A stretch of DNA of 64,000 bases, from the NCBI RefSeq assembly GCF_000003815.2, contig NC_049984.1:23176879-23240878 (forward strand), written 5' to 3'. The notes below the pieces were generated by a model. That model worked only from the letters and a program-made list of their open reading frames with translations. It did not search any database and was not told the DNA's origin. Source of the DNA: Branchiostoma floridae (Eukaryota > Chordata > Leptocardii > Amphioxiformes > Branchiostomatidae). The position numbers were made by a program, and so were the translations under genes. Each line of letters begins with the position of its first letter. Within the stretch, counting starts at the first letter, position 1. Shown here one piece after another: positions 2,163-58,962 of this stretch.

Positions 2163-5100
2163 CTGAAAAACAAACATTCATTATTTCACTTATTATCTAA
2201 TATATAAATCAATGATCATATGTCAAATTCCTTTGTAACAATGTAGCTGAACATATACAAACTGTATGCTACTTGGTGTTATTTGAGACCCAAGACTCGA
2301 TTGTATATGCGAGATTGCAATGATGTAACAGTGACAGTGGTCAAATGTGCATGTGAGTGTGTGTGTGTCAGCGTGTACACGCTTGACCAATTGCTAACGT
2401 CACGTATCCCTAAGATCACTTGTTAACAAGATCACGTGTCTGTAACTCTCACGAGATTATGTTCTGAACTGATTGGTCGTTAGTATTGACAAAGAAGGCG
2501 ACAGTGGTCGTTGAAAATTTGATCCTTGTATACAAATAACAGTAATAAAATCAGCACCATGGACAGTCTAGTTGGCAAGGCATGGACAACAACACAGTAG
2601 TATGAATATGAGTTTTGAAAGTGAGGCAATGCCTCTAAATTTCACACCTGTTAGTCTTCTTTTGTAAGGTGTCAAAACAAAAATGCAGATATGTTCATAT
2701 ACAGGGCTTGAAATACCACCTGCATATGCAGGTTTGTGCCTTTGAGCTGTGCAGGTATTTCTGTTGTCTAGTACCTGCACCTTACCTGTGCTGCATGGTC
2801 CATGTACTGGGTATCATACATAAATGTCTTATGATGTACATGTGTAGGTGTATGTGGATTGTTATCAGCTGCATTGACTGTTAACAACTATAAAGTATAA
2901 AAGAAATAGCAATGGTTCCTGAACAATTTTAGTATGATACATAGCTCCTTAAGTCATAGTGGTGCAGGTAAAATTTGTCTGGTGCAGGTAATTATCAATG
3001 TTACCTGCACCAGCGCAGGTATGCAGAAAAAGTTATTTTGGGCCCTGGACTGGCAACAAATTCTGAAATCATGAATCAAATAAAACCTACCATTTCCATC
3101 CTTGTCCAGCACCTTGATGATGGCCCTGACCAGGTCCTTGTCTGTCCCCACCTGCGTGCCCACACCTGCTGACAGCAGCAGCATGATCTCCTCCATAGTC
3201 AGGCGCCCGTCTCCGTCTGTGTCAACCACCTGCAGGGGAGGGCCAGGTGATGCAGGTGTTACAAACAGTTACTGTTTAGATTTCCTGCAATTGTAAACAG
3301 TTACGCACATGTGCTGACTGGGCTCTTGGGGGTCATTCTGAAGTTACTAGTAGCAGAATCAGTGAATACACGTTGTACAAAAAATGGTACATGTACATGT
3401 CGTAGGAGCGCTCCAGGGACTTAAGGCGCCGCAGAATACACTGTGTCATTCCCATCAGAAAAAGGAAAATTGTAATGCAAGAGCAAAAGAAGTTGTCTTC
3501 AACTAAAATTTCCAACAACATTAATTACAACATCCTGTAATTGAATAATAGACAATGGTGCATTTGGTGCATGCAAAGTGCATTAAAATGACTGAATTTT
3601 CCATTGGATACAAGACTTATGTAGGATGGTCCAGAACAGCAGTATCAAACATTATGCCAGCTCAGGTATATGACACAATGATCACACGGGCCGCTGATTA
3701 TAAACAGTTATCCAGTGACGTACCTGAAACATCTCCTTGTAGGCCTGTATGTGGAATGCCAGTTTGTCAAGATTCAGCTCCAGTGGATCATTGGGGCTTA
3801 GTGTACTGCAAGAGTAACAAAAATTATCAATGATCCGTTCAAGAAACAGTAGTAAGTTACCATACATTTAAAATGGTTAAATTTGTAACAGTCTCAGGTA
3901 CTGTACACAAATCAGCACACCACAACACAGCAATCAGCTGCTAGCATATTTTGATTGACTCCTCAACAGCCACACCACCTTCAATACTTCTTCGATGAGG
4001 GTTAGACATCCAGGTAATAAAGACTTTCTGGATGGTACTCAGGCTAATGTGTGGCATTTTCGACACTCAATACTGTTAGTTTCACACCACGTCACATCAC
4101 ACCCTGGTACCTTGTGTCCTCCCTGTCAGCAAATACATCAAGTAAGTTCATTTCACCCCTAGTGAGAGACAGCAGGTGCAGAGGGTTAAAGAAGACACCA
4201 CTATCACCCTTAAGCGGGTATATCTCAATGAGCCAGGTCTGTTGGTGACTGTTATGCCAAATCCAGGTTGCAAACAGGTGCCAAATTGGTGACCAGTGCC
4301 AATGGAATTCATGGCCTCAAACTGCAATTTTTGGTTTAAATTGAAAAAAAAATTGCAATTAGCAAAATGAAACAAATAGGCGCAAACTACAAAATGTAGA
4401 TGCCAACAGGACTGGTGCAATCATGGCACATCTCTTTTTAATGCATCTTATCTTTTGATTTATCATTGTACATTTTGGTTTTTAATGCAGCAGTCACTGT
4501 CGCCACAATGCAATTTCCAATAAAGTTGTCCTGTATCTAATTAGCAACTGCAACTGAGGATGTGACATTTTGGGTACCGCCATTTTGATTGTAGAGGTCA
4601 CGCATTTTACCTGAACCTTACATGTCAATGTGACTGCCAGCCAAAATGGACGAAAATGTTTGCAACATTGCGGCGATAATTTGTCGCAAACAGGCTTAGT
4701 CCAGTGAGATACCCGCTTTACTACCAGTCCTTGCAAACACCACTCAGTTATAACATCATAAGTGTCAAACTACCCAATGACAGAGACATAGGAGCAAAAT
4801 ATGTACAGGACAGATGAACAAAAAGTAAAGAGATACATTTCCCAACTACAAACAGCAGAAGATACAGCATCATACAAATGGTGTTCTGTATGCTGTGACC
4901 ACAAGGACAGACTTCCTACTATAACTGAAAATTGGGACAGTATAAAGAAATGGATATGGTTTCTCCATAAGGCAGGGATACAAAAAAATACTTCTGATAG
5001 ATACAATGCATCTAGGAAAGGGTGCTAAGAATGTGGACCAACAGAAGAGAGAGTCTAAGAATGAAAGGGTGTGCTTACGTTATTCCCCTCAGCTTGTCGT

Positions 5101-17100: not shown

Positions 17101-20100
17101 GTGAATCGTAGATGGCAGGAAGACGAAACCTGCCACCGACACGGTTCAGTGTGGGTACATTGACCAAAAAGGTATGGTGAGTTCCTTTTCTTGTGTTGAA
17201 ACAAAGCTTAAACTGGGCAGCCAACCCCCTTGTGAACTTTCTAATTAGTACAGTCCTTTATCCACACCTCAGTTAACTTAGCACATTCCATTGTAAAACA
17301 GGGGACGGTCAGCTTACCTCTACTGCTCACAGGACTGGGATGTTTCTTGGTGCTGTTTAACTGCTCACTACTCCCTTCTGCTTCGTGCCTGATGATAGGG
17401 ATAGTGGCCGCACCAGGCAGGTTGTCGGGGGGAGCTTGGTAGTCTTGTGGTGCCATTTCCGGGGACCACTGCTTATATTTTCCCATTCCACTGCTGTTAA
17501 GAAAATAAATCAACAAATCAGAAAATATTGCAAGAAATTTGCAAATTCTAAAACTCCTCTTTTCCTAAGCAATTCTGATGATAATATGTTATAATATCTT
17601 TGCAGGAAATGAAAATCAACTGTATCAGAAAGCTAAGTACACCACGATATAAAAGCTTTAAAAAAGAGGGCAATATTCTTTTTTCGTTTTTCTCACCTTG
17701 GCTGACTTTTCTCATGATGACAACCTAGCCTCCAATTGTCTCTCTACACTGTCAGCAAATCTTTTGATTCTTTCATTTGTTCTTTCAAATTCTGCCAGAA
17801 TTCATTACCCTTAGAAATCTTACCATCAAGAGGTACTGACAGTTGCCTTTCAGTAACATTTCAGTAAATCAGCTTTACTGTCAGTCCTGTGATATTACTG
17901 ACAAGTTCTATGAGTACTTATTACTGATCTCTTACTGTCATTAACTGTCAAGTTGACAGTTCTAAAATTCTAAAATGCTACTAGTACTAGCAATTACTGA
18001 TTTGATACTACAAAAGTAGACAAAATTTTCATCTCTTCTATATTTCTATTAGTGCTGACTGTGCAATCCAACAAGCCTTCAGGTGGAAATTACACATACT
18101 TATACATGTAGTGTAAATTTAAAGTTGCTAGCTTGTAAGTAACACAGCACGAAAACAACTTTTTAAGCAAAGTTTCAGAGATACGTATAAAGCCCTTAAA
18201 GGCGGAGAAATATTTCAGCAGATTTTAAGATCTATCAAAGGCATCGGAAACATACATTTGGCATTTACGGAAGATTTCAGCGTTTGTAAATCTAACTTAA
18301 TCTGTTGTGTTTCTTTGCGTGAATTTTACATGTATTTTAGTATGCCGAAAAGACAACTTAAATGTCTCAAAAATATTTTCTGTCAAAACGGACAAATACC
18401 GTTTCTCTAGATCTGTTACAAAATACATGTTAACCGGCTAAGTCAAATGTAATAATCCTTTGTCTGGTGTTAGATAAAACATTGCGTCATCTGTTTTATA
18501 ACAGTGGCAAGATTTACAGTCAAAACTGAAAATTATTGCGCTTTCTGGTACAAAATGTTATGTTTATACCTCAGCAAATACAAATACAATACAATACAAA
18601 GTCAAATACAATAATCTTCTGTGTTTTTTAGCTATTCCGAAAGCGTTTGACGTATTCAAACTTTCTGTGCACAAGGTTTAATTCGAACAGGGGAGAACCT
18701 CTCACGGTTAGCTTATATGCGCTATTTTACGTTATATGAAATGTTGCGGATACCATGGTCAATATTGACCGAAGGATGTTATATATATAATTTATTTCGA
18801 ACCGTCATTTACGCAAAGAAGGGAAGACCTCCCCCGTTAATATATTTGCCAAGACGTATATGAAATGTTGCGTATTTCATTTGAACATACGACATGTTTA
18901 TTCTTTGAATCCGCGCAGTTTAAGCGAACTAGGGGAGACCTCCCCCGTTTAGCTTATATGTTGCCAAAACGTATATGAAATGTTGCGTATTTCTTTTGAA
19001 CATACGACATGTTTAATCTTTGAATCCGCGCAGTTTAAGCGAACTAGGGGAGACCTCCCTTGTTTAGCTTATATGCTGCCAAAACGTATATGAAATGTTG
19101 CGTATTTCTGTAAAACATACAACAAGTTTAATCTTTGAATCCTCGGGAGACCACCCCCGTTTAGCTTATATGTTGTCAAGACGTATATGAAATGTTGCGT
19201 ATTTCTGTAAAACATACAACATGTTTAATCTTTGAATCCGCGCAGTTTAAGCGAACTAGGGGAGACCTCCCCCGTTTAGCTTATATGCTGCCAAAACGTA
19301 TATGAAATGTTGCGTATTTCTGTTGAACATACGACATGTTTAATCTTTGAATCCGCGCAGTTTAAGCGAACTAGGGGAGACCTCCCCCGTTTAGCTTATA
19401 TGTTGCCAAAACTTGACGTATATGAAATGTTGCGTATTTCTGTAAAACATACGACATGTTTAATCTTTGAATCCGCGCAGTTTAAGCAAACTAGGGGAGA
19501 TCTCCCTTGTTTAGCTTATATGTTGCCAAGACGTATATGAAATGTTGCCTATTTCTGTTGAACATACGACATGTTTAATCTTTAAATCCGCGCAGTTTAA
19601 GCGAACTAGGGGAGACTTCCCCCGTTTAGCTTTTATGTTGTCAAGACGTATATGAAATGTTGCGTATTTCTGTAAAACATACAACATGCCACAAAGAAAA
19701 CAGGCGGCCTCTTTGAATCCGCGCAGTTTAAGCGAACTAGGGGAGACCTCCCCCGTTTAGCTTATATGTTGCCAAAACGTATATGAAATGTTGCGTATTT
19801 CTGTTGAACATACGACATGGTTAATCTTTGAATCCGCGCAGTTTAAGCGAACTAGGGGAGACCTCCCCCGTTTAGCTTATATGTTGCCAAGACGTATATG
19901 AAATGTTGCGTATTTCTGTTGAACATACGACATGTTTAATCTTTGAATCCGCGTATCTTAAGCAAACTTGGGGGCACTACCCCCGTTTTATCTATTGGCT
20001 AATACCGTCTCAAAGGTTTTATGAAACGTTGCCTTTTTCTGCTGAACATACGGCATGTTTGAAGCGCAGTTTCTGCGAACAGGAGGAGACCCTTTCCTTT

Positions 20101-23100
20101 TTATTTTATACCGCATATATGTTCTGAAATTCCAGGGTCTAAATCAGGGTGAGGCCGCCTGTTTTCTTTGTGGCAAGTTGACACTCGAGCTAAGAGACGG
20201 TAGAAATCCCGACTACTGCTATGAATATCTCCGCGACTCAACCTCTGCTTGAAGAATAAGGATGCAGTAGGTATAGCGTTTTGTGCAGTGAGTTGTGTTT
20301 TCTCTATAAAACGGCAAGCAGTTCTTACTACAGGTAGATGTACGAAATATGTTTATTTCTTTATCTACAAGCAAGCGTCGAGAAAGAACAGTTTGTGCAC
20401 ACAGGCGGTGTCTTCTCGTGTTGCTCGTGTTTGTTTGGGTTAATTATGGTGATATGCGTGGGCAGGCAAGATGTAAATTTATTCAGCGTTATTTCGTACT
20501 CGCCATGGGGCGCACGCCTCCGTCCGTCCAAGGAGGTTGAACTTCCTTGGTCCGTCTGTGGCACAGCTGTGTCATGTGATAGGATGTATCCAATGGCAGA
20601 AAAGAGTGGGGGGTTCAAATTTACGGGCCATACGTACGACAAGGAGCGGTTATTTTCCAGGCGTTCATTTTTTAAGAGAAGTATTGAAGAAAGTTTGGGC
20701 CTGTTCTAGCCCGCAAGTTGTGGCCGCGACACCGCTTTTACCGCCTAGGACCCCCGGTGACGGAATTTGACTCAAAGATACGAGGTGGCTATCATTCTGT
20801 AAAAGCTGTTGTTGTTGGAAATCGACACAGAATGGAAATCACGGCCCTTGTACCATCCGGATTAATAGAAGCCGACACTGCAAGCTGAACATGTTTCGCG
20901 TTCACAGAATCCAGGACCATCCAACAGCACGAGTCATATCGGCCACTACTCTAGATCTTACCGGATTCTTATTCCTGTGGTGACCAGATGGAACTGTACA
21001 TGTGTGTTCTTTTTAACTTACGCCGAGACGCTTCACCCGACACTGGAAATGGGACTGTGGACTGCTGCACGGAATTGCGCAACCGTTGTGATTGTTTCAA
21101 CTGCCGACTACATCAGAATGAAAGGCCACAAATACCTAGTAGGCTGTAGGTTTTTTTTTTACTTTTCCATGTAATATTTTCTCGTAATTCAATAAAATTT
21201 CAAAGTTTCATCCATTATATTTTCTTGCTTTGAAATGTGCTAATGATTATTCTCCTAAAATGGCACTTATCCACACGTTATAATCAACTTAATGCACACG
21301 TATATGAGACGTACAGAGGGAACTTTAAACATGCCTTAAGGGTGCTTTAGTACGTATTTATGACAACTTTAAGCTGCTAAAAAGAAAAATATAGACACAT
21401 TAAATCCTCTTAATTCACACGTATATGAGACGTACATAGGCTTTAGATCAAATAAACGTGAAGTTTAAACAAGTCTTAAGGGCGTTATAATAGGTATTTA
21501 TGGCAAATTTAAGCTGCTGAAAAGGCACCTAAACACACGTTATAATCCACTTAATGCACACGTATATGAGACGTAAACAGTCTTTAGATCAAATAAACGT
21601 GAAGTTTAAACAAGTCTTAAGGGCGTTATAATAGGTATTTATGGCAAATTTAAGCTGCTGAAAAGGCACCTAAACACACGTTATAATCCACTTAATGCAC
21701 ACGTATATGAGACGTAAATAGGCTTTAGATCAAATATACGTGAAGTTTAAACATGTCTTAAGGGCGTTTTAATAGATATTTATGGCAACTTTAAACTGCT
21801 GAAAAGGCACCTAAACACACGTTATAATCCTCTTAATGCACACGTATATGAGACGTAAACAGGCTTTAGATCAAATAAACGTGAAGTTTAAACATGTCTT
21901 AAGGGCGTTTTAATAAGTATTTATGGCAACTTTAAGCTGCTGAAAAGGCACTAAAACACACGTTATAATCCACTTAATGCAATTGTATATGAGACGTAAA
22001 GAGGCTTTAGATCAAATAAACGTGAACTTTAAACAAGTTTTAAGGGGGTTTTAAAAATCATTTACGACATCTTTAAGCTGCTGAAAGACAACGGGAAAAC
22101 CGGAAAATAAGGACTAACACGGACCTACAGAAAGACCACTTAAAGGCAATATTTACGTACTCGTATAAGTGGTGTATAGATCCGTAAAGGAGGAAAATAC
22201 GTCAACATTACGCATGGTTTCAGCATCCTTAAATACCGTTTTTCGTGCCGTGTAAGAAAAGCCAGGATAAAGAGAGTGTACAACTGCATTTTTATCTTTC
22301 CTGAAACAGCTGTACGTACAAAATGTAGTTATTAGGTGTCATCACATAATACTATCAGTGGAGAGTGTTATAAAAACAACACAAAGTAAATCCCTTCTGA
22401 CTACAACGGAATAGTGCTAACAGAAACCAAACCAACTATGTTTACCAAATTGAGTGTCTATGCACACAAACATATTAACAGTTAACATTGTTGCAGGCCT
22501 AACAGAATACTTAGAAAAGGGGGGAAGCAGTTGTTTCACACAAAAAAGAAAATTGAATAAAAATCTCAGGAATTGTGTCTTTTGAAAAAGGCAATTTGAA
22601 AGGTCTTTGAAATGTAAACGAGGGGACAACATTTAAGTCAAAATATTACAATGACCGCAAACAGGCTATCATTCCCCCTTTGGCCTCTCTTGGTACATGT
22701 AGATTCCAGTATCTGATGAGAAAAACCTCCCCTTTCCCACAATGGTTAGGTCCATGCCTGGGTACGCTCCAAGCTTGAGTCTACATTGAGGGAAATACTT
22801 AGCTTGTTTCTCTGTCTGCCCTAGCGCCTGAACATGTGACCTGGAACCCAAGAATGTCTTTCTTTGTTGCCAATCAGCACTTTTAGCATGCTTTCTGCCT
22901 GGCTGTGCTGAAGTCTCTTTTAATTTTCTGCTGAAGGGTTCGAATTCTGGCTCTTGACCTCCCTCGCTGTCTATCTTTCCACTCGACTCCGCACTCAACC
23001 AGTCTATTTGTACAAGTATGTCTATTCTTGAGCATCCTGCCTGGACTTGTCTTGCTGGCCTGTCTGCCTGTGCCTTTATCTCTGTATGTGCCTGTATCCC

Positions 23101-26100
23101 TGGCCTGTATGCCTGTTCTTTGGCCTGTACGTATACTAACTCCTGCATTTCTGTCTGTGCTTGCAGCTTTGCGGCGTGCAGTGCTATCTCCTCGCATGAG
23201 CCTATGCGAGGTAGAAGCGGGTCTATGGTCCAAGCCTGGGTGCCTACAAACCTGTACTTGCTAACACACAAAATAAAAACTTATTTTTTGATAATTCCTT
23301 TCGCTTAAAAGCCCCATGAATTGGGTTTACATATTTCCTAAACACCTAAAGGAAAATCAAAGCTGATTTTGAAAATAAACCCCTTTTGGTTCTGGGACAC
23401 TTTTAATCAAGTCTAATTTAACTTTTAAAAGGTACTGGACTACTCAACTGGGGACTTTTATATTACCCTCTGTTCCAATAAGGCCATGTTGTTTCAATTA
23501 TATCAATGACATCTGCACATCAATTTTTATTGTTTCCAGATAAAAAAAGATTTTGACCACACTGTCATACAAAGCAGCTGCAAAATGAGTATTACTAATT
23601 AAGAGTTATGCTGTAAGTTGCAAGGAATATCAATGTCGTATCAGGTACTATTAATATAAATGACTTGTACTAATCCAATGCCGAAGGATGCTTAAGTTAA
23701 CTTCACAGTCAAAGAATAAGAATTTGATGTGAAAGAACAAAAATAAACATCAACATATTATTGGGTATACCGTACTCTGTGCATTTATATTTTGTTCAAT
23801 CTTGTTTAGTCATTTGTTCTATCTTCCTGACCACTTACTAACAGATTTCACAATGAAGGCAATTTTTCTTTGCCAAACTTTTTTTTCACTTACTTACAAT
23901 TCAGTTTTGGGGTTCCCAGAGGATTTCATCCATGATTACCGAATGAACATGGCCTGACCAGTAATAATAATACTAGAAGCTGTCTAAAATCCATTCAATA
24001 TTCAAAGGAGCTGCGATTTAAGTAAATAGGAACACATAAAGTACAAGCCATATTAGAAAGAAGAATCCTAACAAACAGCTGGTGTGTTATGCTGAAGCTG
24101 TTGTGTTACGCCAAAGGGCAGTTATACTGGCTATATAACGCTAGTTCACCTTTATACGTCGGGTAACCTTTATCCGTTGTGTTTAAGAGCAGGGTACTAC
24201 GCGGGGATACCAAGTCAACTAACAGTTCATTGTTTGAAATTGAAATATATTCCCAACTTTGCAGATTGAAAAACCTCTTTCCGTCGACTTAGTATCCCTA
24301 AAATCCATGTGTTTAAAAACAACGGATATAGGTAACCCTGCGGATAAAGGTGAACTAGTGCTAGATAGTGACAGATACAGAAATAATCTTTCCATAAAGA
24401 TGGTAGTAGCTTCTTCCCACGCAGTCCTGTTTCTGTTTCAGCACAAAGGACAGGGCCAAAATAAGATGAAATGAAATAGAATGGAACCACTAGATAAAAA
24501 AATAGGGACTTTGGATAGAATATTTGGGCTATTGGTGCAAATGCATGGCAAGGTGTTTTTTTACCAAGCACCAACCCTGCTCTTTTAGATAAGTGTGATG
24601 GGTTCTTTTACGTGCAGACGTTTTGAGGTTATTGAAACTTTGGAACTTTGCAACCTAGTATATCAACACCAAAGCTGGCATACCTGAGTCCCCTGCCGTA
24701 GTGCGAGGTACTGGACCGTGCCTGGGACAGTTATCAGACCCTATATCAACACCAAAGCTAGCGTACCTGAGTCCCCTGCCGTAGTGCGAGGTACTGGACC
24801 GTGCCTGGGACAGTTATCAAACCCTATATCAACACCAAAGCTAGCGTACCTGAGTCCCCTGCCGTAGTGCGAGGTACTGGACCGTGCCTGGGACAGTTAT
24901 CAAACCCTATATCAACATCAAAGCTGGCGTACCTGAGTCCCCTGCCGTAGTGCGAGGTACTGGACCGTGCCTGGGACAGTTATCAAACCCTATATCAACA
25001 CCAAAGCTGGCGTACCTGAGTCCCCTGCCGTAGTGCGAGGTACTGGACCGTGCCTGCGACAGTTCCCGCAGGCGGTTCAGCTCGTCATCGTCCACCTGGT
25101 ACCGGTACAGCAGCGGGACGTTGGACCCCATCATGTAGTACATCCGGTCCACTCGGTGGGACACGATCTGGACAGGAGGACACAGAGTTAGTCCTTAAAC
25201 CATTCAATCTTTGAGTTTTGTGTCTGCCAAACTTGCCCAAGAAGACCAAGGACCAATAAAATTTGGTTTATGTAGACACCGGTGGTCAAAATACACAGGA
25301 TTCTTGTTGCTTGGATTCTGGACACATTATGGCCAAGCATAACATATCTACATCAACTTTCTGAAGATACTGGCTGCATGGCTGAAGATCACCCCAAGGC
25401 TATGGAGGATAGGGAAGGATGGAGGAAGAGAGTCATGGCCATCCGTGCAACCAGCACGCCCGGATGATGACGGTCCTTATGTTAAGAGGTTTGACTCTAA
25501 CGTGTTGTCTCAGTCCAAAGACTTTTTTGTTTATAGATTCAACTAAGGCATTTTGATAAATGTTATTGCAATACAATGTAACTGTCAATGTTGTTGGGTA
25601 GCTATCCATATACAATTGTTGGATTTGATATACCGTATATTCTCGAATAAAGTACGCACTTTTTTAACTTTTCAAAATTGAAAAGGTGCTACAAATTGTT
25701 GCCAAAGTTGTGGTGCGTACTTTATTTGAGGTTACTGCACAGAGAAATGGTAAAAAAAAGCCTAAAATAAAGCAAGGTAAAGCAAAATAACACTTCTTCT
25801 ACTCTACACTTCTAGTAATGTTTCAAAACATACACATTGTTGTTGTCTTGTTGTTGTCTAAACATGAAACAAAGAAATTGTCTTAACATGATTTACATAA
25901 GATTGGCATTTGCATACAATCCTTTTGAGTTAGTGACTTTGACTTGTACAACTGGTTTTCTACCAGTTCACAGTGATTTTTATAATTTGCAGTAGGCAAT
26001 TCACAAGTTTATAGAGACAATGACAGTGTAAATGCAGGTTATTTCATGCAAAATAACCTGGGGAAAACATCATAAATTTGAATTTATCCAGTTCAAGGTC

Positions 26101-29100
26101 TTTTCAAAATTGGTGGAGAAGGGGTGCGTACTTTATTTGAGTTTTTCCATTTTACCTTTCAGTCCCAAAGATTTGTCTAAGACTTGTCCAAAATCAGGGG
26201 TGCGTACTTTATTCGAGAATATACGGTAATACATCACACAGAATCAGACTTTTTTTGCAAGGGGAATAACAGATGCCATCTACATTTGGGCTCTAAACCA
26301 TCTCTCAACTGAGATAGGGGGTGCCATAGACTTTCTGCAACTTATGATCCACTGCTTACAGAAGCAGGGTCAATTGCTCATTCCATGACAAAGACCGGGG
26401 TTGGACGTGTTTTGGAAATCACGTTCAATTTTGATCCATGAGATATATGTATAAGCTCAGTTGGACTATCAAGCTGTACCTCTGCTGTTCTCTTCATGAC
26501 CTTGGTCCTCATCCTGGCCTTCTCCTCGTCCTGTAGTCTCCGCTGCTGTTCACTCATGTTCCTGATGGGGGAGCGAGTGTCCCGCAGGTACAGACGCGAG
26601 GTCGTGGCCTGGGGCGCGGGACTTGGCGTCTGATAGGGACAAAAAACAGAAGCCATCGTCAACACTTAACAAATATGGGTTCTCTGAATAGGTGGGCTGG
26701 GCTAGTGGGGTGGGCTACCTCAGTGGGCTACCAAACCCTGATAGCCTGGGTCCCAGGAACAGTAGCCCAATGAGTCGGCCTATGCCACTAGCCTAGGCCA
26801 CCTTTTCCAGAAACCCTACAATGATGATCCTTGAATTACTGTACCCCTCATACGTTAAAAAGATTAATAATCTTAAAGATTAATAACTGCTAATAAAGAC
26901 TACTGTAAATGTTTACATTTTTATGGTAGTTCAACAACGTTGTTTTCAAGGTACATGTACCTCTTCACTGCAAACTCAAAACCAGCCAGAAAATAAATCC
27001 ATCTTCTGCCAACCTACCCCCTAATTTCAACTGCAATAAAAAAGCACCATATTTTTCCCCTCTCACAGAATTAAATCCCCCAAACTGAAAGGCATTTCTC
27101 ACCTCCCTGTCCTTATAAACGGGTACGGTGCGTACGCCCCTCGCAGACGGCGTTCTGGATCGTGGTTGGTCCTTCTCCTGTTTGTACAGCTGCGGTAGCG
27201 GGACCTGTTTGATCTTGAGTCCCGCGCTGAAGCTCTGAGCGGCGATTGCACGTTGTCTGTTCATCTCGTCATGTAGTAACGGGTACTGTATCGGAAACAC
27301 TTCTTCTACGATTTCCGGCTCAGGGGTGTCGGCTCTTGAGGTTGGCGTGGGAGCCATTCCACTACGGGTCGGCCCGGGAAACGACTTTTCCCGTTGTAGC
27401 AACGTGGACGATGACGTTACCATGGGAACGAGTTGCGTCGCCATGGGCGTTGTCATGGAGAGCGCGGGGGAGGACGGAGATCGTAAACCTCGTCTGTTTT
27501 TTCTGGGAAAGCTCATACTGCGCAGCCGGATGCCATGTCGGCTCTTGTGTTGGTCGACACTGAGAGCGTTGGTTCTGGGGCCGATGATCCTGTTGTACAT
27601 CTGCTCGGTTCCGTGCAGATCTGCGGACAAATGGAGAATAAGTCGACAGGTATTAGTATAGATCTATATCTAGCATGTATAAGTATACACTGACAGTAGA
27701 TCTAGCATCTGTATTCGTATCGTTGTACGTGTGGCCAAAAGCACATTTTAAGGTTTTAGTTGGATTAGCAACAATCCAAATAAACTCATCTCATCTCAAC
27801 TCAAAATCAGCAGATGTATCTGAGACCGAACTGCCATTCCGCATTGAAGCTACGGAAAAACATCACCCTTACATATATATATTACATGTATGTACATGTA
27901 CTTGTTAAAATGGATACATGTACAAACATAGCTAGCATTTACAAGAAAGAAGTACTAGTGGAAAACAATCAATTTCTGGTCAAACTTTACCACGACACAT
28001 TCACTGAACGATGTATGAATCCATAAAAACTGGCACTACAAACAAGACCTTTAGACGTTGAACACACATTGCCAGAAAGCTGCCTTTCAAATGTTCACTC
28101 ACATCCAAAAGGGCAACCAGTAACATAAAATATGGCAGCTGAATGTTCACTAGCACGTTGGGGGTGCTAATAGCTTTCAAGAAAAGTGATAAATGTTCTA
28201 AAAAAGCGAGCAGCACATACATAAGGTGCTACATTAGACTCTTTTATCATAGCTGCCATGAATGAGAGGGTGGCATGTGGTACTGGTAGTATTTTTGCTA
28301 CCTGTCAGTGTATTGAAAACGTAAGTGCTACTACCTTGACTCTGAAGGTATTTCATGATATACCCACACAAATTTTATCTGTTGGTTCTCGGATGTAAAA
28401 AAGAAAATGATACTGAACTACAATTTTTAATTTTGAAGGAAAAAGTGAATTCCAAAGTGATTTGGAACGAGCTAGACTGACACCAAAGGGCTACTCTTAT
28501 ACACTGGTTGTGACAGAGAAGTCAGATACCATGTACAGTATTAAGGTTCATTGTACTATTTGTAGGGGGGGAATTCTAATTAGCTCTTTTCAACACGCAC
28601 AATGTGCAGTAGACCATGGCTTAACTTTGCGACTGTGATCCTTTCTGGTAACGTTTCAAACTTGATCACAGCTTCTAGTTCCAGAGGCAGGTCCGCTTAA
28701 CACGCTGTACACTTATAACTAGAATATCAAAATTATTTCTATAGTAAATACATAGTCTGACTGAAATGTCTCTACCTTGGTACAGTACACACAGATTCAA
28801 GGTTGGGATCATAAAATGTAGATACAAATTTTCCTCCCTTCGCTGTGTTTTCATCCTGATAATTTGCTTACTACATTTAATTTTTACCTATAAAATATCT
28901 GACAAGCAAGAAAATAAATTACTTTTAGTATGACCTAAGTCCTCCACAAAATAGAAATCATTTCCACAGAGTTAGTAACATCCACACTTACACTTAATGG
29001 AGCACCTGCACTGCTAAATGTTTACTCTGCTAAACTTAAGTGTTGTATTTGTTCTTTGCCATAAGTACAAGACAACAGAGCGCTTACTGACGATCTAAAA

Positions 29101-33265: not shown

Positions 33266-33806
33266 GGCTGTTGCGATCTTCAAAAGCTTCGTATTCCTTT
33301 AAATAGTCGCTGAAATCGTCAAAAACATCCAAGTTCTTGAAACCAATGCTGGCTCGCCGCCATTTTGAATTTGTTTGGGTGACGTCACGTTGCTAAGTGC
33401 CCTTCCGTACCATTGGGTATCACGAAAAGGTCATAATGATCCAATTATAATTTTTAATATAATGCCTATTTCCCTGACGCAAGGAATTTAACCTTTTAAC
33501 CATACTGATAGCAACAAATTAAATGTTATTATTTTCTTATTTTGAGCAACAAATCAATCCATTGTCTCTTTTGTGAATGATAAATATCTTTAAAAAGTAA
33601 ACATCCCTGTCCGAGTGGTAGCGTCCATTTTTTGCCCGAGGTCTCATGGGAATGCGGAAGTGACACCTGCGTGACCAAACAACCACCTGTTTGCGCTAGC
33701 AACAGGTGCATAGTGTCCTCCTATACAAATATTTCTCAAAAAGGGGGGTAAATAAGCAAACACAAACCGGTGCTTGGCGATCAAGACTAGAACGATAACG
33801 TTAAAC
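33266..33806. promoter_or_regulatory. Divergent promoter between the EF-hand gene and the SPA17-like gene
   Basis: The start codons are about 540 bp apart and point away from each other. The region has a perfect CRE palindrome TGACGTCA at 33380-33387 and an AAAATGGCGGC (YY1-like) motif at about 33356-33366. Near the plus-strand gene there is an AGCAAC half-site resembling RFX sites. Co-regulation in male germ cells or ciliated cells is inference. Confidence 0.6.
33319..33363 (-). other. 14-codon upstream ORF in the EF-hand gene leader
   Basis: ATG at 33363 in a strong context opens MAASQHWFQELGCF and stops 54 nt before the chosen start at 33265. If the leader starts upstream of 33363, this ORF would be met first and could lower translation. 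Confidence 0.45.
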
Positions 33807-33950
33807 ATGTCTGTGAGCTACGGCCCCGTACGGTTAGCGGTCCCGCCCGGTTTCAAGTCGCTCCTCGAGGACTTGAGCCGGGAGGTCCTACGAGAGCAGC
33901 CGGACAACATCCCCGAGTTTGCCGCCAAATATTTCGAAGGGCTCCTGAAG
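33807..33950 (+). CDS. SPA17: SPA17-like gene, exon 1 (RIIa domain)
   Basis: ATG at 33807 (aaacATGt), the first in frame; 48 codons ending GGG CTC CTG AAG at donor gtacga. It encodes almost the whole RIIa helix-turn-helix. Confidence 0.92.
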
Positions 33951-35944
33951 GTACGATCGAACTGTAACATTATACTAATCCTTAAAATCTCCATGCAATG
34001 CCGTGTATGTTTTTCCTTCTTAATTTGTGCGTCAATCTTGACAATGGCATTGGCGTTTCCAAGGTCAAAATCAAGTTTGTTCATTTCGTTGTGATTTTTT
34101 TTTGCAGGCCAGAGAAACTGGTGACTACCACTCGGTAGAAGAGCTCAGACAGCGGGACCTAAGAGACAGAGGGGAGCCCAGGGCTGTAACAGTAGACCTA
34201 GGTAAATTTGAATTACAACAAATTGTACATGTAATTATATATCAATAGTAATAATAGTATTTTTCTGTTTAAAAAGCTATGTTTTGGCTACAAATCTAGT
34301 AGCGCATTAATCCAGTGGTTAGTGACTCTGCCTTTCACTTCAGAACCAAGAGGTTGGAGTTCGAATCCTGACTGCTATTGCTGACCCAACATACATGCTA
34401 CTTAAAAGGGTTGCAGTCCTTAGGACAGGACGTTAAGCAGTGGTTCAATGTTAATTGTACATGTACTTGTAAAAAAAGGGCTATCGGAGAATTTCCCCGC
34501 CAGAACAAACCTATAACTACCGTACATAGCATCTGTCTTCTCTATCACAGCCAATGGAAAAATACACAAAACGTAAGAATATTAATTCTTTATCTCGTTT
34601 TTCGAAATTCGTTCTTAAAATTGAGTATCTTTCAAACCCAGCAGTGCTGCCGCAAGTGCAGTGAGATACCATCTTAAGAACTTTGACATTGACTTGCTAA
34701 ATTTGGATTAAGGACTGTATTACCACACCTTGTGTGTTTAGCATTGATAGAAATTGTGCCTGACATTGGTGTCTGGTAACCTGACATTTCTATATTGGCT
34801 CCTCTCCTGCCAGAACCATCAGAGCCCAGTGTAAGTGAACCCCCCACAGAAGCTCCATCCCAGCCGGCTGCACCCCCAGGGGGAGGGGCAGTGGAGGAGG
34901 AGGAGGAGGAGGAGGAGATGCCTGACCTGGACGACCCTGAGGTGGCCGATGCTGCACTGAAGATACAGGCTGGCTTCAGGGGCTTCAAGGTAAATTCACC
35001 TTGTAGTACAACCAGTATGTATCTGAGTAATAAGGCCCTTGTAGTGTGCTCAAGGTAGCTCCTGGAACAGCAGCCTAATTTTACATCCCTTCTGCAAGGC
35101 GAATGCAGCTACAACCAACTAGGATACCCTAAACCAGGCCTTTGCTGGTTTTTTTTTTCATTTATTCATTTGCATATATGTACAACATATAAAAACAAAT
35201 CATCATACAGTAGAAGTAATGAGAGCACATATGCTAAGAACAGGATCAGCCTTTTGATATTTGAACTGTTGGTCATGTTCTGAATAACAGGTATCAACTT
35301 TAGATTTGACCTTCCCCTCTAACAACTATATCAAATGGATGTTGCCAACAGTGTATCACTCGATAGAAGTAGAGATAGGACTTTCTCTTTCCATAGTTAT
35401 GAGCACCAAGGCTCCATGTACAGTTTAGCTCCAAGTACAAGAGAGTGTAAGGTCCTCCTTTCTAAACCTGGTGGCAGCGGTGGGATCTAATCTTTCTTTT
35501 TCTCTCCCAAAGGCAAGAAAAAGTCTTCACACCACAGAGTCACAGCCTGAGGCAGCAGCTCCAGCAGAAGAGGCAAAGCCAGCAGAGACAACAGAAGATG
35601 CAGCAGGGGAGGCCCCAGCAGAGGAGGCTCCAGCAGAAGCAGCTCCAGCAGAAGCAGCTCCAGAGGAGGCTCCTGCAGAAGCAGCTTCAGAAGAGGCTCC
35701 TGCAGAGGAGGCCCCAGCAGCAGAGGAGGCACCAGCAGAGGAGGCCCCAGCGGCAGAGGAAGCTCCAGCAGAAGCTCCTGCTGAAGAGGCTCCAGCAGCA
35801 GAAGAGACTCCAGCAGAAGAGACTCCAGCAGAAGCCCCAGCAGAGGAAGCTCCAGCAGAAGCCCCAGCAGAGGAAGCCCCAGCAGAAGAGACTCCAGCAG
35901 AAGAGACTCCAGCAGAGGCAACCCCGGCAGAAGCGGAGGCATGA
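33807..35944 (+). CDS. SPA17: SPA17-like protein (RIIa docking domain plus IQ motif), whole gene
   Basis: Exons 33807-33950, 34108-34201, 34814-34989 and 35513-35944 total 846 nt, 281 aa plus stop, with consistent phases. Residues 12-48 match the RIIa dimerisation/docking domain of sperm protein 17 closely (VPPGFKSLLEDLSREVLREQ, then PDNIPEFAAKYFEGLL). An IQ motif (IQAGFRGFKAR, residues about 130-140) follows an acidic linker, the order seen in vertebrate SPA17. RIIa domains bind A-kinase anchoring proteins and IQ motifs bind calmodulin; SPA17 is a sperm-tail and cilium protein. The tail (about 150-281) is nearly pure Pro-Ala-Glu repeats and makes the protein about twice the length of human SPA17. 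The divergent neighbour is a calcium-binding protein. Confidence 0.9.
34108..34201 (+). CDS. SPA17: SPA17-like gene, exon 2
   Basis: Acceptor tttttgcag, donor CTAG|gtaaat; 94 nt, phase 0 to 1. It encodes a charged linker (ARETGDYHSVEELRQRDLRD). Confidence 0.88.
34301..34456 (+). mobile_element. tRNA-derived SINE in an SPA17 intron
   Basis: A tRNA-like head with an A-box-like cagtggttagtgact and a B box gttcgaatcc about 40 bp later. It is followed by a SINE-like body containing gcagtccttaggacaggacg. It is not a functional tRNA: the acceptor stem does not close. Confidence 0.6.
34814..34989 (+). CDS. SPA17: SPA17-like gene, exon 3 (acidic linker and start of IQ motif)
   Basis: Acceptor cctgccag, donor TTCAAG|gtaaat; 176 nt, phase 1 to 0. 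It includes a Glu run coded by a pure GAG stretch, then DPEVADAALKIQAGFRGFK. The intron splits the IQ motif after FK. Confidence 0.9.
35513..35944 (+). CDS. SPA17: SPA17-like gene, exon 4 (IQ motif end and PAE-repeat tail)
   Basis: Acceptor tctcccaaag; starts ARKSLHTTES, completing the IQ motif, then EEAPAE/EETPAE units in a coding minisatellite (12-15 bp multiples, all in frame) to TGA at 35942-35944. The antisense Leu-rich frame is a shadow. Confidence 0.9.
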   Translation, partial: ARKSLHTTESQPEAAAPAEEAKPAETTEDAAGEAPAEEAPAEAAPAEAAPEEAPAEAASEEAPAEEAPAAEEAPAEEAPAAEEAPAEAPAEEAPAAEETPAEETPAEAPAEEAPAEAPAEEAPAEETPAEETPAEATPAEAEA

Positions 35945-48700: not shown

Positions 48701-51234
48701 GCCGGCCCCCAACTATTGCTTGCTTCTCTGTGGAGGCAAGCGATAGATGAGGCCAGCTGGATCGTCGGGCGTGCAGGTGTTGGGCGTGCAGGTGTTCCAG
48801 GGCGCGTGTGGCGGGGATCTGTAAACCTTGCGCGCGGCTCTAGGAGTCTGCGTTTTCCCAAGGTATTAGTTACTAGGCCTAATGCCATACTGTTTTCAGG
48901 GTCTACACAGACCAACTCCTCTGTTCTAGGGCCAACATGCTCCCAACAAAATTCTACAACACAAAAACTGAACCTTCATTTAATGTTCTATCTGAAGGAT
49001 GTCCTCAACCACTGCTTATATTTGGGTGCTAATTTCCTAGCCTAGGTTCCATCTGATTACTACCAGGAGGGCCCGGTAGTGATTACTACTTACTTACTTA
49101 CTTACTTACTACTGGCCTGGTAGTAATCTGATGGCACCTGGGCTACTAATTTTTGCCTGAGTAAAGTGAAGAAATTTGTGTTACGTGCCTTTCCCAACAG
49201 AACAACTTCAATGGGACAACATGTCAGATAATTAGGGATGTGCACCGGTACAGTGTACCGATACAGTACCCGTACAATCAATTAGGTACAGATAAAACAA
49301 GAGTCTGAAAACTCAAACCTGCTTGAAATATTTTGTTTTGTGATGGTGCGTATGGTGTGTTGTGGGGGGTGATATGGTTTGACGTTTGGCAAAATTATTC
49401 CATCATTGTTCTTAAGTTATATATCTACCTATGGTAAACAGTCAGATCCAAAACTACACCTTTCTGGTGTCCTCACCATTTCATTTTTATTTCTTATTGT
49501 TACACCTGCACCTGGCACATACATTGTATCTCAATGTGTATATAATGGTTCACACCATACAGAGGTGACAGCGATGGTCACAGTTGCTCTTTTTTGCTCC
49601 TTGGAAGATTTTGACCAGAATGCCCAAGCAGTTCTAGAGCAAGCTGCTAGAGGGCCCAAACATACAACACTTCTTCCTTATACCACAAGCTATGTGCCAC
49701 CAAAAAATCAAGACCATAGCTTGTCCATGTCAAAAGATACAAAAATCCAAGTTCTGTTGCAGTACCAAGGTCACACACCAGGGGATCCAAAATTGACTTT
49801 GACCTTCGTCTTCCAAACACCTACCCAAATACCAAATATCATTACAATCCATCAACAGGTTCTAAAGTTATGCTGACCACAAATATGTGGAAACACAAAC
49901 AGACACACACACAGACACACCAAAAACTATACCTCCATTTTTCATGGAGGTAAATATTATCACAGTCACACGTTCTGTTCTGGAGATATAGCACTGGAAA
50001 CGACCCTTCCACACACTCCCATGCTACTGAAAACTCAAAACACATGTTACAGCTGCTAGCTGTCCCCAAGGAGGTTGAGACAGAGGGAATGAGGCCAGAT
50101 CACTCCATATCAGGAAAAGGGGTGTAAATATCTTTTTTTTTTAAACGAACCACAAAACAACAGCAAACTTCTAATCTACTTGATAGCACAATAGGTCACA
50201 CACTCTATCCCCATAGCAAAGGAAATCGCAATCCATCCAGAGGTTCTAAAGATATCGGTCCGGAATCACAAAGATCCCTACCAGAAACAGTACATGCTTT
50301 TTTCAAGCATGTAAAAATACCGAACCCTGGTGTACCGGTACTGGACCTGTATCTAATTAGTGCAAGCCAGGCATGATAACAGGTCAGGGGATGGCCACTT
50401 TGACAGATAAAATTACAGCAAAAATTATAGCAGTCTCTGAGCCCCAGTGAGGGAAAAGCAACAAGGGTCAAATTTTTGTTGCATCATGTGTCTACCATAA
50501 TAAACACCTTTTTATTGGTTCAAACATGCTTCTACCCTTTCTATACATTGTTTTGCCATTATAACATAATATAACATAATATTATGATATAATATTCAAT
50601 GCCATGCATTTAGGTCCGGACTCATTAGGTCCGGACCTGTACCTAAACCTCTGGATTCGAATCCGGACCTGTACCTAAACGTGGGTTTAGGTACGCATCC
50701 CTACAGATAATGCAAACCCAGGAACTGTCCAAATCCCCGTCATGTTTATCTAAGGTCCTCAGGAACAATTGGCTAAAAGTCTGGTTCCCAGGGTATGTAT
50801 TGTACAGGGTATCACTGTAAATAGAACTTGCAAGTTACACAATTCACAACAAGTTGCATAAGACAAAATATGCAATATACAACTTAGGTGTGCAAAAGAC
50901 TGGGGACCACAAAAGATAGCTTTTGATCTTATGCACCATCTTGTGCATCAGCTAAAAGTACGCTGCTATTACATTTTAGTCACAAACGCAGTCAAACATA
51001 AGTTAATTCACGTTACATAAAGTCCTTGCATAAATTTCAAAGAAGTACACATTTTGACGTGCAACATACACCGTGTTTCTCACCTCTATTCATACATCGT
51101 TGCCAGACAAAATCCACCTTCGACGCTTCATGGAAGGCCTTGCAGACCTTAGCAGCTGTTGCCAACTCTTTTCCGGAAAGGAAGGACAGAATATGAGCCA
51201 GTAATTCTGGAGGGAAAGCTGTCAAACTCTCCAT
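39583..51234 (-). CDS. FBXO31: F-box only protein 31 (FBXO31), whole gene
   Basis: Eleven exons were joined by GT-AG sites and phase: 51084-51234, 46965-47021, 45938-46014, 45261-45434, 44823-44897, 43810-43919, 42815-42968, 41934-42014, 41583-41631, 40425-40593, 39583-39739. Total 1254 nt, 417 aa plus stop. Residues about 4-45 are an F-box ([20 protein letters not shown]). The rest matches the FBXO31 substrate-binding beta-barrel: [96 protein letters not shown]31 joins SKP1-CUL1 as a substrate receptor; the human protein is linked to cyclin D1 turnover and to recognition of C-terminally amidated proteins. The human sequence continues about 25 residues past YSRV, but here translation stops five residues after it. 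Confidence 0.95.
40425..40593 (-). CDS. FBXO31: FBXO31 exon 10
   Basis: Acceptor tttttttcag, donor AATGAG|gttggt; a low-complexity Ser/Gln/Asn linker, then [20 protein letters not shown], matching human QPFVLPVG...YPRTCRM. Vertebrates have a longer linker here. Confidence 0.94.
40654..41215. mobile_element. 562-bp element with ~88-bp inverted repeats and 8-bp duplication
   Basis: The arms begin caccctcacactcaaggttg and, reversed, caccctcacactcagggttg, and continue for about 88 bp at roughly 90 percent identity. They are flanked by tgaaatgt (40646-40653) and tgtaatgt (41216-41223), seven of eight matching. It lies in the intron between FBXO31 exons 9 and 10. Confidence 0.88.
41354..41546. mobile_element. 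MITE, family GCTAGTTCACCTTTATCC
   Basis: Left end taacgctagttcaccttta; right end caaaggtaaactagtgt. It has the same inverted ggtaacctata/tataggttacc block. It lies in an FBXO31 intron next to exon 9. Confidence 0.85.
41583..41631 (-). CDS. FBXO31: FBXO31 exon 9 (49 nt)
   Basis: Acceptor tattgatag, donor GGAAG|gttggt; [16 protein letters not shown]. It is short and less conserved, but needed to keep phase between exons 8 and 10. Confidence 0.85.
41934..42014 (-). CDS. FBXO31: FBXO31 exon 8 (81 nt)
   Basis: Acceptor ctcttgcag, donor CAACAG|gtatgt; [20 protein letters not shown] then MLDEEQQ, matching human GDPNIPAGQQTVEID. Confidence 0.93.
42564..42793. mobile_element. MITE, family GCTAGTTCACCTTTATCC
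   Basis: Left end taacgctagttcaccttt; right end ggtgaactagcgtta, a perfect outer inverted repeat of 15 bp. It ends only about 20 bp from the 5' splice site after FBXO31 exon 7. Confidence 0.88.
42815..42968 (-). CDS. FBXO31: FBXO31 exon 7
   Basis: Acceptor gccccgcag, donor ATTACT|gtaagt; contains [20 protein letters not shown], the most conserved stretch of the family. Confidence 0.96.
43810..43919 (-). CDS. FBXO31: FBXO31 exon 6
   Basis: Acceptor aattgcag, donor TACCA|gtaagt; [19 protein letters not shown], then [11 protein letters not shown] as in the human HMQELILMKF. Confidence 0.94.
43935..44090. repeat. Dispersed repeat, third copy
   Basis: Same orientation as the 15103 copy: aatgatagcatggcaattag, gaccaatga and tatgggattggttt. 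It lies in an FBXO31 intron. Confidence 0.6.
44173..44387. mobile_element. MITE, family TACTGTAAATGCAG, FBXO31 intron
   Basis: Left end tactgtaaatgcagaaatg; body with accactgcgaac-type blocks; right end decayed after cttaaatgcatta. Confidence 0.75.
44823..44897 (-). CDS. FBXO31: FBXO31 exon 5 (75 nt)
   Basis: Acceptor ttttcag, donor GAACAG|gttggt; [20 protein letters not shown] then QGREQ. It aligns with the human FSTKC...HR..GGRQ segment, including the conserved KC and HR. Confidence 0.9.
44938..45120. mobile_element. Half copy of the foldback element
   Basis: It matches one arm of 39085-39470 (aaaaaatggaccca, gatatcacattatgcagatag, gagcagtggatcataag, agtctatggcgcccc), lying next to FBXO31 exon 5. 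Confidence 0.7.
45261..45434 (-). CDS. FBXO31: FBXO31 exon 4
   Basis: Acceptor tgttacag, donor TTATTG|gtaaga; 58 codons in phase 0 with [17 protein letters not shown] and [14 protein letters not shown], both conserved FBXO31 blocks. Confidence 0.94.
45765..45845 (+). mobile_element. tRNA-like SINE head, FBXO31 intron
   Basis: It has an A-box-like gcatagtggtttgtg and a perfect B box gggttcgaatccc about 45 bp later. The stems do not form a full tRNA, so a SINE head or tRNA pseudogene is likely. Confidence 0.5.
45938..46014 (-). CDS. FBXO31: FBXO31 exon 3 (77 nt)
   Basis: Acceptor ctttcag, donor GTTAAG|gtaagg; [20 protein letters not shown] then GLVHVK, colinear with the human LLHRY..LGLWQPDIGPYGGLL segment. 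Confidence 0.93.
46390..46815. mobile_element. Inverted-repeat element, family GGTACCATCCGG
   Basis: Left end tagcctac..taggtacaccatcagggtagtag; right end actactttccagatggtacc then caggcta. The internal block attaaggaatggg...cattccttaattt forms a second inverted pair. It shares structure and sequence with 58112-58588. Confidence 0.75.
46965..47021 (-). CDS. FBXO31: FBXO31 exon 2 (57 nt)
   Basis: Acceptor acgtttcag, donor AAAGC|gtaagt; completes R-E, then [18 protein letters not shown], matching the YGV...DVYAKLLH region of human FBXO31. It is too short for standard ORF calling. Confidence 0.9.
47126..47350. mobile_element. MITE, family TACTGTAAATGCAG (reversed), FBXO31 intron 1
   Basis: Left end tactgtacatgtggcggcgg; right end ctgcatgtacagta. 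The body has tcgcgatgaaatggcc and accaccgtgaaag blocks of the family. Confidence 0.75.
47765..48544. mobile_element. 780-bp element with outer and inner inverted repeats, FBXO31 intron 1
   Basis: The outer ends ctctaccaggcttcgtggat and, reversed, ctctaccaggctcggtggat enclose a second inverted pair: cctcaccacgaagactgtgt at about 47872 and its reversed partner at about 48477-48508. There is no coding frame I accept. The ctaccaggct block also occurs at 32075 and 32640. Confidence 0.75.
49038..49146. mobile_element. Small palindromic MITE with (ACTT)n centre
   Basis: Arms tagcctaggttccatctgat and, reversed, tagcccaggtgccatcagat continue through tactaccagg. The centre is (actt)n. It lies in FBXO31 intron 1, downstream of a 190-codon frame that I do not accept as a gene. 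Confidence 0.75.
49233..50703. mobile_element. 1.47 kb hAT-type element, FBXO31 intron 1
   Basis: A perfect 8-bp duplication cagataat (49225-49232 and 50704-50711) flanks ends tagggatgtgcacc and, reversed, tagggatgcgtacc. These features fit hAT. The interior has several ggtaccggta/gtaccgatac repeats and a 165-codon frame (49382-49876) without recognisable transposase motifs, so it is probably non-autonomous. Confidence 0.9.
50712..51083. other. FBXO31 intron 1, nothing supported
   Basis: AT-rich sequence between the hAT-type element and exon 1; no exon, repeat end or RNA seen. Confidence 0.45.
51084..51234 (-). CDS. FBXO31: FBXO31 exon 1 (F-box)
   Basis: ATG at 51234 (gaagATGg), the only ATG in frame before the F-box; donor AATAGAG|gtgaga. 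It encodes [20 protein letters not shown] and on to the [10 protein letters not shown] end of the F-box, phase 1. Confidence 0.93.
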
Positions 51235-52600
51235 CTTCAAAATACATTACTAACCCGGAAGTGGAAAAATTCAATGACTGACAACCACGGCGAACGCTCG
51301 TAAGCGCGAAAATTCAGTTTAGCTACAATTATATACCAATGATAATAGTTTGACAAACACAACTATTAAAATTGACCTTATGTAATTTTACATACTATTT
51401 TATCATTATACAATTGGTGTATTTCAATTCATGCATTTTGTCTTTTATGTTTTTGCAATAGTTATGATACGCACTACTTTACGTACTGATGCTATCGAGT
51501 ACACGCCTGACCTCTTGACCTTCCGCTGACAACAACTTTGATCACGTGTCTATAAGAAATTAAATGCCTTGCGGACGCCACGTGCAAAATATCGTACGTA
51601 ATACAAAGTCTGCTATGGCACGGGTAAGGAATTCCTTATTAATTTTCGGTAGCAAATCTGGCTTGATATCTGAGCTAGCAAAATTTTAATGCGTGCACCA
51701 AATATGTGATGATTTTTCATTTTTCAATAATATCCATTTTTCATTTTTTTGAAAGTCGATCACGAACTATAGACTACCAAGATTCGCACCAGTTACAAAC
51801 ACAAACCCGCAACTAACATTACCTGAAGTGTGCCACTTGCTAGCTGTCAGGAAAAAATATAGTGTAATCTAAATATGAAATTTGCTGATAATGGCAACTT
51901 TAATAAATTCAATGTTGTTGACATCGTCACATTGTCTATTTACTTTACCGGCAATCTTATTATATAATTCGATAAAAGTTGGTACCGTTATATCATAGCT
52001 ATACGCATACCAAGTATCATCGGGTAACGTTACAACTAGCGAGGCGAAAACTCCAGTAAAAGTAAAACAAATAGGGGAATCCCCTTTGGTCCGAGCGGAC
52101 GAGAGGGGCGTGGTCGCCACCCCGCCATAAACAACCCATGCCTAACGTACGTGGGACGCACATGTCACCCGTGGACAGCGCTTTACGTTCAAGTTTTACA
52201 CAGTCGCCTTGTTTTCATTTTCTTCGTGGGGGCTTCAGCGCGTACTGCTAAGCTCATCCGTAGCTATTTCAGACCGTTATTATCAGATAATATGTTTTAC
52301 GATCATCGCAGAGCTGGAGTTATCAAATTACTCGGAAAATCGAAAATCTTGGCAAATCTCGTCTTTGAATCATTGTCAGATCATGAAAAAAGCGTTTAAT
52401 CAAATGATACTTCATCAAGACCAATGAATATCGTGGTGATTCAGAATTGTGTCGTTGTGTGATGTTTGTTTGTGTTTGGCAAATCTTTCCCAGGTAATCT
52501 ACCGTAACGTTATCTACCGTCAGCTGTCATCTTTTACTTTTACCGGACAAAAGTACTTTCACTTTCTTCGTGCGTCTCTTAGCGCAACGCCGCAAGATAC
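51235..52600. other. Upstream region of FBXO31
   Basis: Promoter-proximal DNA with no TATA box just upstream of 51234. Several short open frames (e.g. 51869-52120) look random. No second gene is supported before the CpG-rich region at 52.6 kb. Confidence 0.4.
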
Positions 52601-58849: not shown

Positions 58850-58945
58850 GCCCTATGTTCCGAAATCCCTATGTTCCGAAATCTCTATGTTCCGAAATCC
58901 CTATGTTCCGAAATCTCTATGTTCCGAAATCCCTATGTTCCAAAA
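58850..58945. repeat. 16-bp tandem repeat beside the assembly gap
   Basis: Six copies of cctatgttccgaaatc (alternating ccc/tct variants) run up to the N gap, which suggests that the gap hides more of the array. The frame reading through it is not a gene. Confidence 0.9.
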
Positions 58946-58962
58946 TTTTGACAAACAGCTAT

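Follow-up and report, generated by a model that had tools for sequence, protein, structure and literature searches.

A donor-side boundary minisatellite of 83-bp units in Branchiostoma floridae, probably a neutral 'mirage'

Known repeats across splice boundaries

Minisatellites that lie across an exon-intron boundary have been described in amphioxus under the name 'mirage', namely in Adh3 and the globin genes BflGb6 and BflGb9 (PMC3087553) and further in TnC and PGBD5 (PMC3902484). Like the array of the present study, they are short tandem repeats over the boundary that often duplicate AG/GT splice signals (in many cases, not in all). Both acceptor-side and donor-side cases are known, BflGb9 duplicating the 3' boundary of exon 2, and our 83-bp unit falls inside the span of the published ones (10-72, 60, 108 and 150-160 bp). 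The excerpts of the first report on which we draw describe mirage clusters as length-unstable, list two haplotypes of one mirage with 6 versus 3 units, and suggest from the Adh3 and globin data that regular splicing is not interfered with (PMC3087553). For TnC, the accessible part of the second report states on the authority of others that there is no aberrant mRNA; for PGBD5 it gives a gene model that takes repeat copies as exon without transcript support, and repeat numbers that are unequal in two lancelet sequence versions (PMC3902484). Ebner et al. found one mirage to be aberrantly assembled in the draft genome and, in the same excerpts, propose tandem duplication as a route of intron gain for mirages (PMC3087553).

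A comparable human repeat is the VNTR in intron 18 of ABCA7, whose 25-bp unit includes the donor of exon 18. According to the portions of the report available, an isoform retaining exactly one unit is out of frame and unaffected by VNTR size, skipping of exon 19 rises with VNTR length, and transcripts introducing a PTC are raised by cycloheximide (PMC5954066). As far as these portions describe it, the VNTR resembles our array in that a repeat flanks an exon, the unit includes a splice donor and retention of one unit shifts the frame; it differs in being intronic beside exon 18 with no 49-nt exon tail copied, and in being human, disease-associated and linked to a length-dependent skipping of the next exon. 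Tandem duplication as such is a published route of intron gain (PMC4974935, in the sections concerned with it). A potato case of intron gain is likewise a tandem duplication that copied splice signals, with a unit crossing an intron-exon boundary; there, however, a new intron is spliced, whereas in our case the copies sit in an existing intron beside its donor.

The array analysed here lies in a window of 64,000 nt, the whole stretch of B. floridae contig NC_049984.1 under study. Amphioxus repeats of this kind have already been described, and the array is a new and clean donor-side example rather than a new phenomenon. It belongs to another gene than the published mirages and, unlike them, combines an intact donor in all five copies with a mean difference of 2.4% between copies and a common filler.

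Anatomy and origin of the array

The preliminary description of the locus had reported 83-bp copies running from the intron into exon 4, each with about 50 nt of exon sequence and an intact GT. TRF and an alignment of the copies agree on this arrangement (Table 1). Read on the minus strand, the array has a period of 83, 4.9 copies, 97% matches and a score of 770; the exon part measures 49 nt per copy and is followed by 34 nt of intron part (25 nt in copy 5), and CAG|GT is present in five of five copies. Copy 1 starts within exon 4, 49 nt ahead of the exon's end, and stops in intron 4. Five series-connected donors were thus correctly recognised, with the correction that 25016, given as a donor position, is the last exon base and 25015 the first base of the intron. 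The exon part of the unit has a GC content of 63%, as against 62% for exon 4, and the intron part one of 44%, as against 38% for the remaining intron 4.

Table 1. Features of the array and of the adjoining exons, in window positions; on the minus strand a copy starts at the higher coordinate.
Feature	Position	Strand	Remarks
Exon 3, 150 nt	26480..26629	-	Upstream coding exon in phase; open frame
Exon 4, 152 nt	25016..25167	-	Ends in copy 1; phase 0 in, phase 2 out; in frame with exons 3, 5 and 6; acceptor tract 75% pyrimidine
83-bp tandem array	24659..25064	-	Crosses the exon 4 / intron 4 boundary; TRF and copy alignment
Copy 1	24982..25064	-	49 nt of coding exon tail and authentic donor; first intron base 25015, CAG|GTACGC
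Filler GGGTTTGAT	24982..24990	-	Junction of copies 1 and 2; recurs at the three remaining internal junctions
Copy 2	24899..24981	-	Donor 24932; if used, transcript 83 nt longer and out of frame, with a stop in exon 5
Copy 3	24816..24898	-	Donor 24849; if used, stop 24909-24907 included
Copy 4	24733..24815	-	Donor 24766; C>T in common with copy 3; if used, stop 24909-24907 included
Copy 5, partial, 74 bp	24659..24732	-	Donor 24683, CAG|GTATGC; continues into unique intron
Exon 5, 176 nt	17318..17493	-	Next coding exon; open frame; acceptor tract 70% pyrimidine
Exon 6	from 16108	-	Open frame with exons 3-5

Five 83-bp copies of such similarity are far beyond chance. Relative to the majority unit, copies 1 to 4 carry 1, 1, 1 and 2 mismatches, and copy 5 carries one over its 74 bases, its last 9 positions being unique intron. 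These are one private change in each of copies 1, 2, 4 and 5 and one change common to copies 3 and 4. Pairs of copies differ at 0-2 of the 74 shared sites, where copies 3 and 4 are identical, and this low divergence points to an array that is young or homogenised. Within the exon part, copy 1 is set apart from the other copies solely by TCG versus TCC, a synonymous (Ser) change in frame. The whole array, in the one haplotype analysed, has at least one match in the genome assembly, at 100% identity; the longest matches of the unit to the window outside the array comprise 11 bases, and an exact 42-nt pattern from the exon part had, as expected, no matches in a prokaryote genome collection. A search for the GFP family, which lancelets possess, found no member in the assembly, but none in 14 control genomes either, which leaves this result without weight.

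All four internal junctions contain a 9-bp filler, three times as GGGTTTGAT and once, with one change, as GGGTCTGAT. Neither flank of the array contains it, be it on the exon side (CTGCGGG|AACTG) or on the intron side (GATATACTAGG), and a search of the window for a template, using a 14-nt pattern of the filler and five further bases with up to two mismatches, returned the four junctions only. To judge from these junctions, the common filler suggests one founding duplication with amplification afterwards as the simplest history, and the C>T common to copies 3 and 4 agrees with one of them having given rise to the other. We assume that the duplication linked intron 4, at roughly its 25th nucleotide, to exon 4 at 49 nt from the exon's end, the 9-bp filler lying at the joint, and that the resulting 83-bp unit was then amplified to about five copies by slippage or unequal exchange. 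The whole exon would have been kept in copy 1, so that the protein would be unchanged as long as the donor of copy 1 is used, and the outer copies would be intronic decoys. From the structure of the locus we infer this order of events, as well as donor 1 carrying nearly all splicing, allelic variation in copy number and the lack of a function.

The array is not isolated in its surroundings. Tandem repeats detected by TRF cover 5.4% of the window and 6.4% of twenty 10-kb samples from the same contig (200 kb in total, of which 8.8 kb are N), a comparison that applies within this contig. Loci with a period of at least 40 and at least 2.5 copies number 6 in the window and 11 in the samples, where they are unevenly distributed and occur in 7 of the 20. 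Given a similar density across the contig, an array that happens to touch one exon edge is presumably not very surprising. When exons 3-6, each extended by 60 nt on either side, were searched against the window (E <= 0.01; 15900 was assumed as the far end of exon 6), duplications of other boundaries were not found, and exon 4 alone matched, to its own array only. Intron 4 also holds minisatellites at 18820-19988 and 21320-22086 with units of about 115 and 141 bp, and at 17500-17538 two 20-bp copies lie within the pyrimidine tract directly before the exon 5 acceptor, with a TRF score at threshold.

Donors, reading frame and gene context

Joined through the innermost donor and the acceptor at 17493, exons 3-6 form a single open frame with join phases 0, 2 and 1, in agreement with the exon 4 model proposed earlier, while the two other frames contain many stops. 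By frame, 25015 is therefore the authentic donor. The unit length of 83 nt (2 modulo 3) is not a multiple of three, as had been pointed out, and with donor 2 the joined exons 4-6 go out of frame and reach a stop at codon 124. The frame had also been described as open past the second donor and closed near 24907; this holds, with the stop placed at 24909-24907. It is taken in by donors 3, 4 and 5 alike (codon 87 of joined exons 4-6), and donor 4 would regain the phase only beyond it. Among the five donors only donor 1 gives an open frame (assessed on exons 3-6 for donor 1 and on exons 4-6 for donors 2-5).

The donor sequence is CAG|GTACGC in four identical copies and CAG|GTATGC, with one base changed, in the outermost. 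Pairing with U1 amounts to -7.1 kcal/mol for each of the identical donors and -7.2 for the remaining one, compared with -5.7 for the donor of exon 3 and -9.6 for that of exon 5. From 25167 to 17493 there are 478 GTs, ten of which reach -7.1 or a stronger value; the array donors make up five of these ten. By sequence, the outer donors are no weaker than donor 1; their equal pairing means that sole use of the innermost donor is not guaranteed. U1 pairing alone does not predict donor use, however, as a non-array GT inside exon 4, at 25095, pairs more strongly at -7.6. When equal donors are duplicated in vitro, the intron-proximal one is often favoured. In DOK7, the relevant passages of the report describe two donors 11 nt apart of which the intron-proximal, also the stronger, is preferred, the choice between neighbouring donors depending on donor strength and SRSF1 (PMC5585400).

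A masking of the outer donors by RNA structure was considered and rejected: none of the five copies folds notably better than shuffled sequences (z between -0.13 and 1.58), nor does the 121-nt stretch around the authentic donor (z -0.77) give a fold signal. Constraint on the exon-like parts did not reach significance either, with 1 of 49 exon sites variable against 4 of 34 intron sites (Fisher P = 0.15; binomial on events P = 0.08).

The 223-aa protein of joined exons 3-6 matched no Pfam family, and a search of the joined-exon protein (203 aa) against the PDB gave no credible match (best E 0.21). A Pfam EF-hand match is found in an ORF at 2957-3268 on the same strand, about 22 kb downstream of exon 4; the preliminary description had placed exon 4 in an EF-hand gene, a putative assignment. 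Rfam gave no matches over the whole window. An ORF of 203 aa from stop to stop at 22669-23251 on the minus strand joins exon 4 in phase via an AG ending at 23252. Its length was reached in none of 500 dinucleotide shuffles (largest 131); it has a weak acceptor tract (50% pyrimidine), an ACAGGC-repetitive look and no Pfam match, and may be an alternative terminal exon or else a frame of repeat origin. Elsewhere in the window, a degenerate repeat of the AEEAPAE type stands in an open frame (35600-35940, plus strand). Upstream of it are an ORF with an RIIa domain (33756-34091) and an IQ motif below threshold (34780-35055); the region 33756-35940 is presumably SPA17-like. An F-box domain ORF is found at 51040-51246 on the minus strand (Pfam F-box-like, E 1.2e-11), and a 16-bp repeat, CCCTATGTTCCGAAAT, at 58851-58946 adjoins a stretch of N.

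Alternative readings and implications

The array is probably a neutral mirage, a minisatellite of one exon-intron boundary that is likely to vary in length and perhaps leaks to some extent into NMD transcripts. We prefer this neutral reading because the published mirages have the same anatomy and, in Adh3, TnC and the globins, are reported to leave regular splicing intact. A stronger leakage, in which donor 1 dominates, donor 2 or one further out is used in a measurable fraction of transcripts, and premature stops lead to NMD and to a lowered, unselected output, is rather unlikely. The near-equal donor sequences would allow it, as would the example of ABCA7, where the available portions describe a frameshifting retention of one 25-bp unit and PTC transcripts raised by cycloheximide (PMC5954066), but for the mirages of Adh3, TnC and the globins undisturbed splicing is reported. 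Very improbable is a donor ladder, in which each extra unit would add an equal competing donor ending in NMD, so that allele length would tune the amount of functional mRNA and selection would act on length. The preliminary description had left neutral slippage and a splicing switch side by side; of the two, neutral amplification is better supported. We place very little confidence in the switch, an isoform ratio set by copy number and under selection: five near-equal donors would suit it, and in the accessible account of ABCA7 the skipping of exon 19 goes up with VNTR length (PMC5954066), yet all four outer donors yield a truncated frame, and neither a fold signal nor significant constraint on the exon-like parts was detected.

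The duplicated signals could also delimit introns in the making, of 45 nt each, bounded by one donor and the CAG in the following copy (candidate ends at 24971, 24888, 24805 and 24722), leaving mini-exons of 38 nt. Three such mini-exons, from copies 2-4, are in frame and open, but one, two or four lead to stops (4 of 15 combinations were tried, one per number), and the acceptor tract holds 50% pyrimidine versus 75% and 70% before exons 4 and 5. A length of 45 nt is, moreover, very short for an animal intron, which counts against this reading. Tandem duplication as an intron-gain route, published in general (PMC4974935, in the sections concerned) and proposed for mirages in the excerpts from Ebner et al., speaks for it; we nevertheless consider it the least probable of all. 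An assembly artefact, made from a polymorphic or smaller duplication, is highly improbable as well. The aberrantly assembled mirage of Ebner et al., the unequal PGBD5 counts in the accessible part of that report (PMC3902484) and 100 N within the window would be compatible with it, but the N stretch is about 34 kb from the array, and the private changes in four copies and the change common to copies 3 and 4 argue against it.

The array at exon 4 offers a clean example from nature in which a single exon is followed by several near-identical donors, spaced 83 nt apart, and as such bears on how the spliceosome ranks equal donors. For the mirage model of how duplication may seed introns, it provides a precise donor-side example with a presumed order of events, a founding duplication with filler and then amplification.
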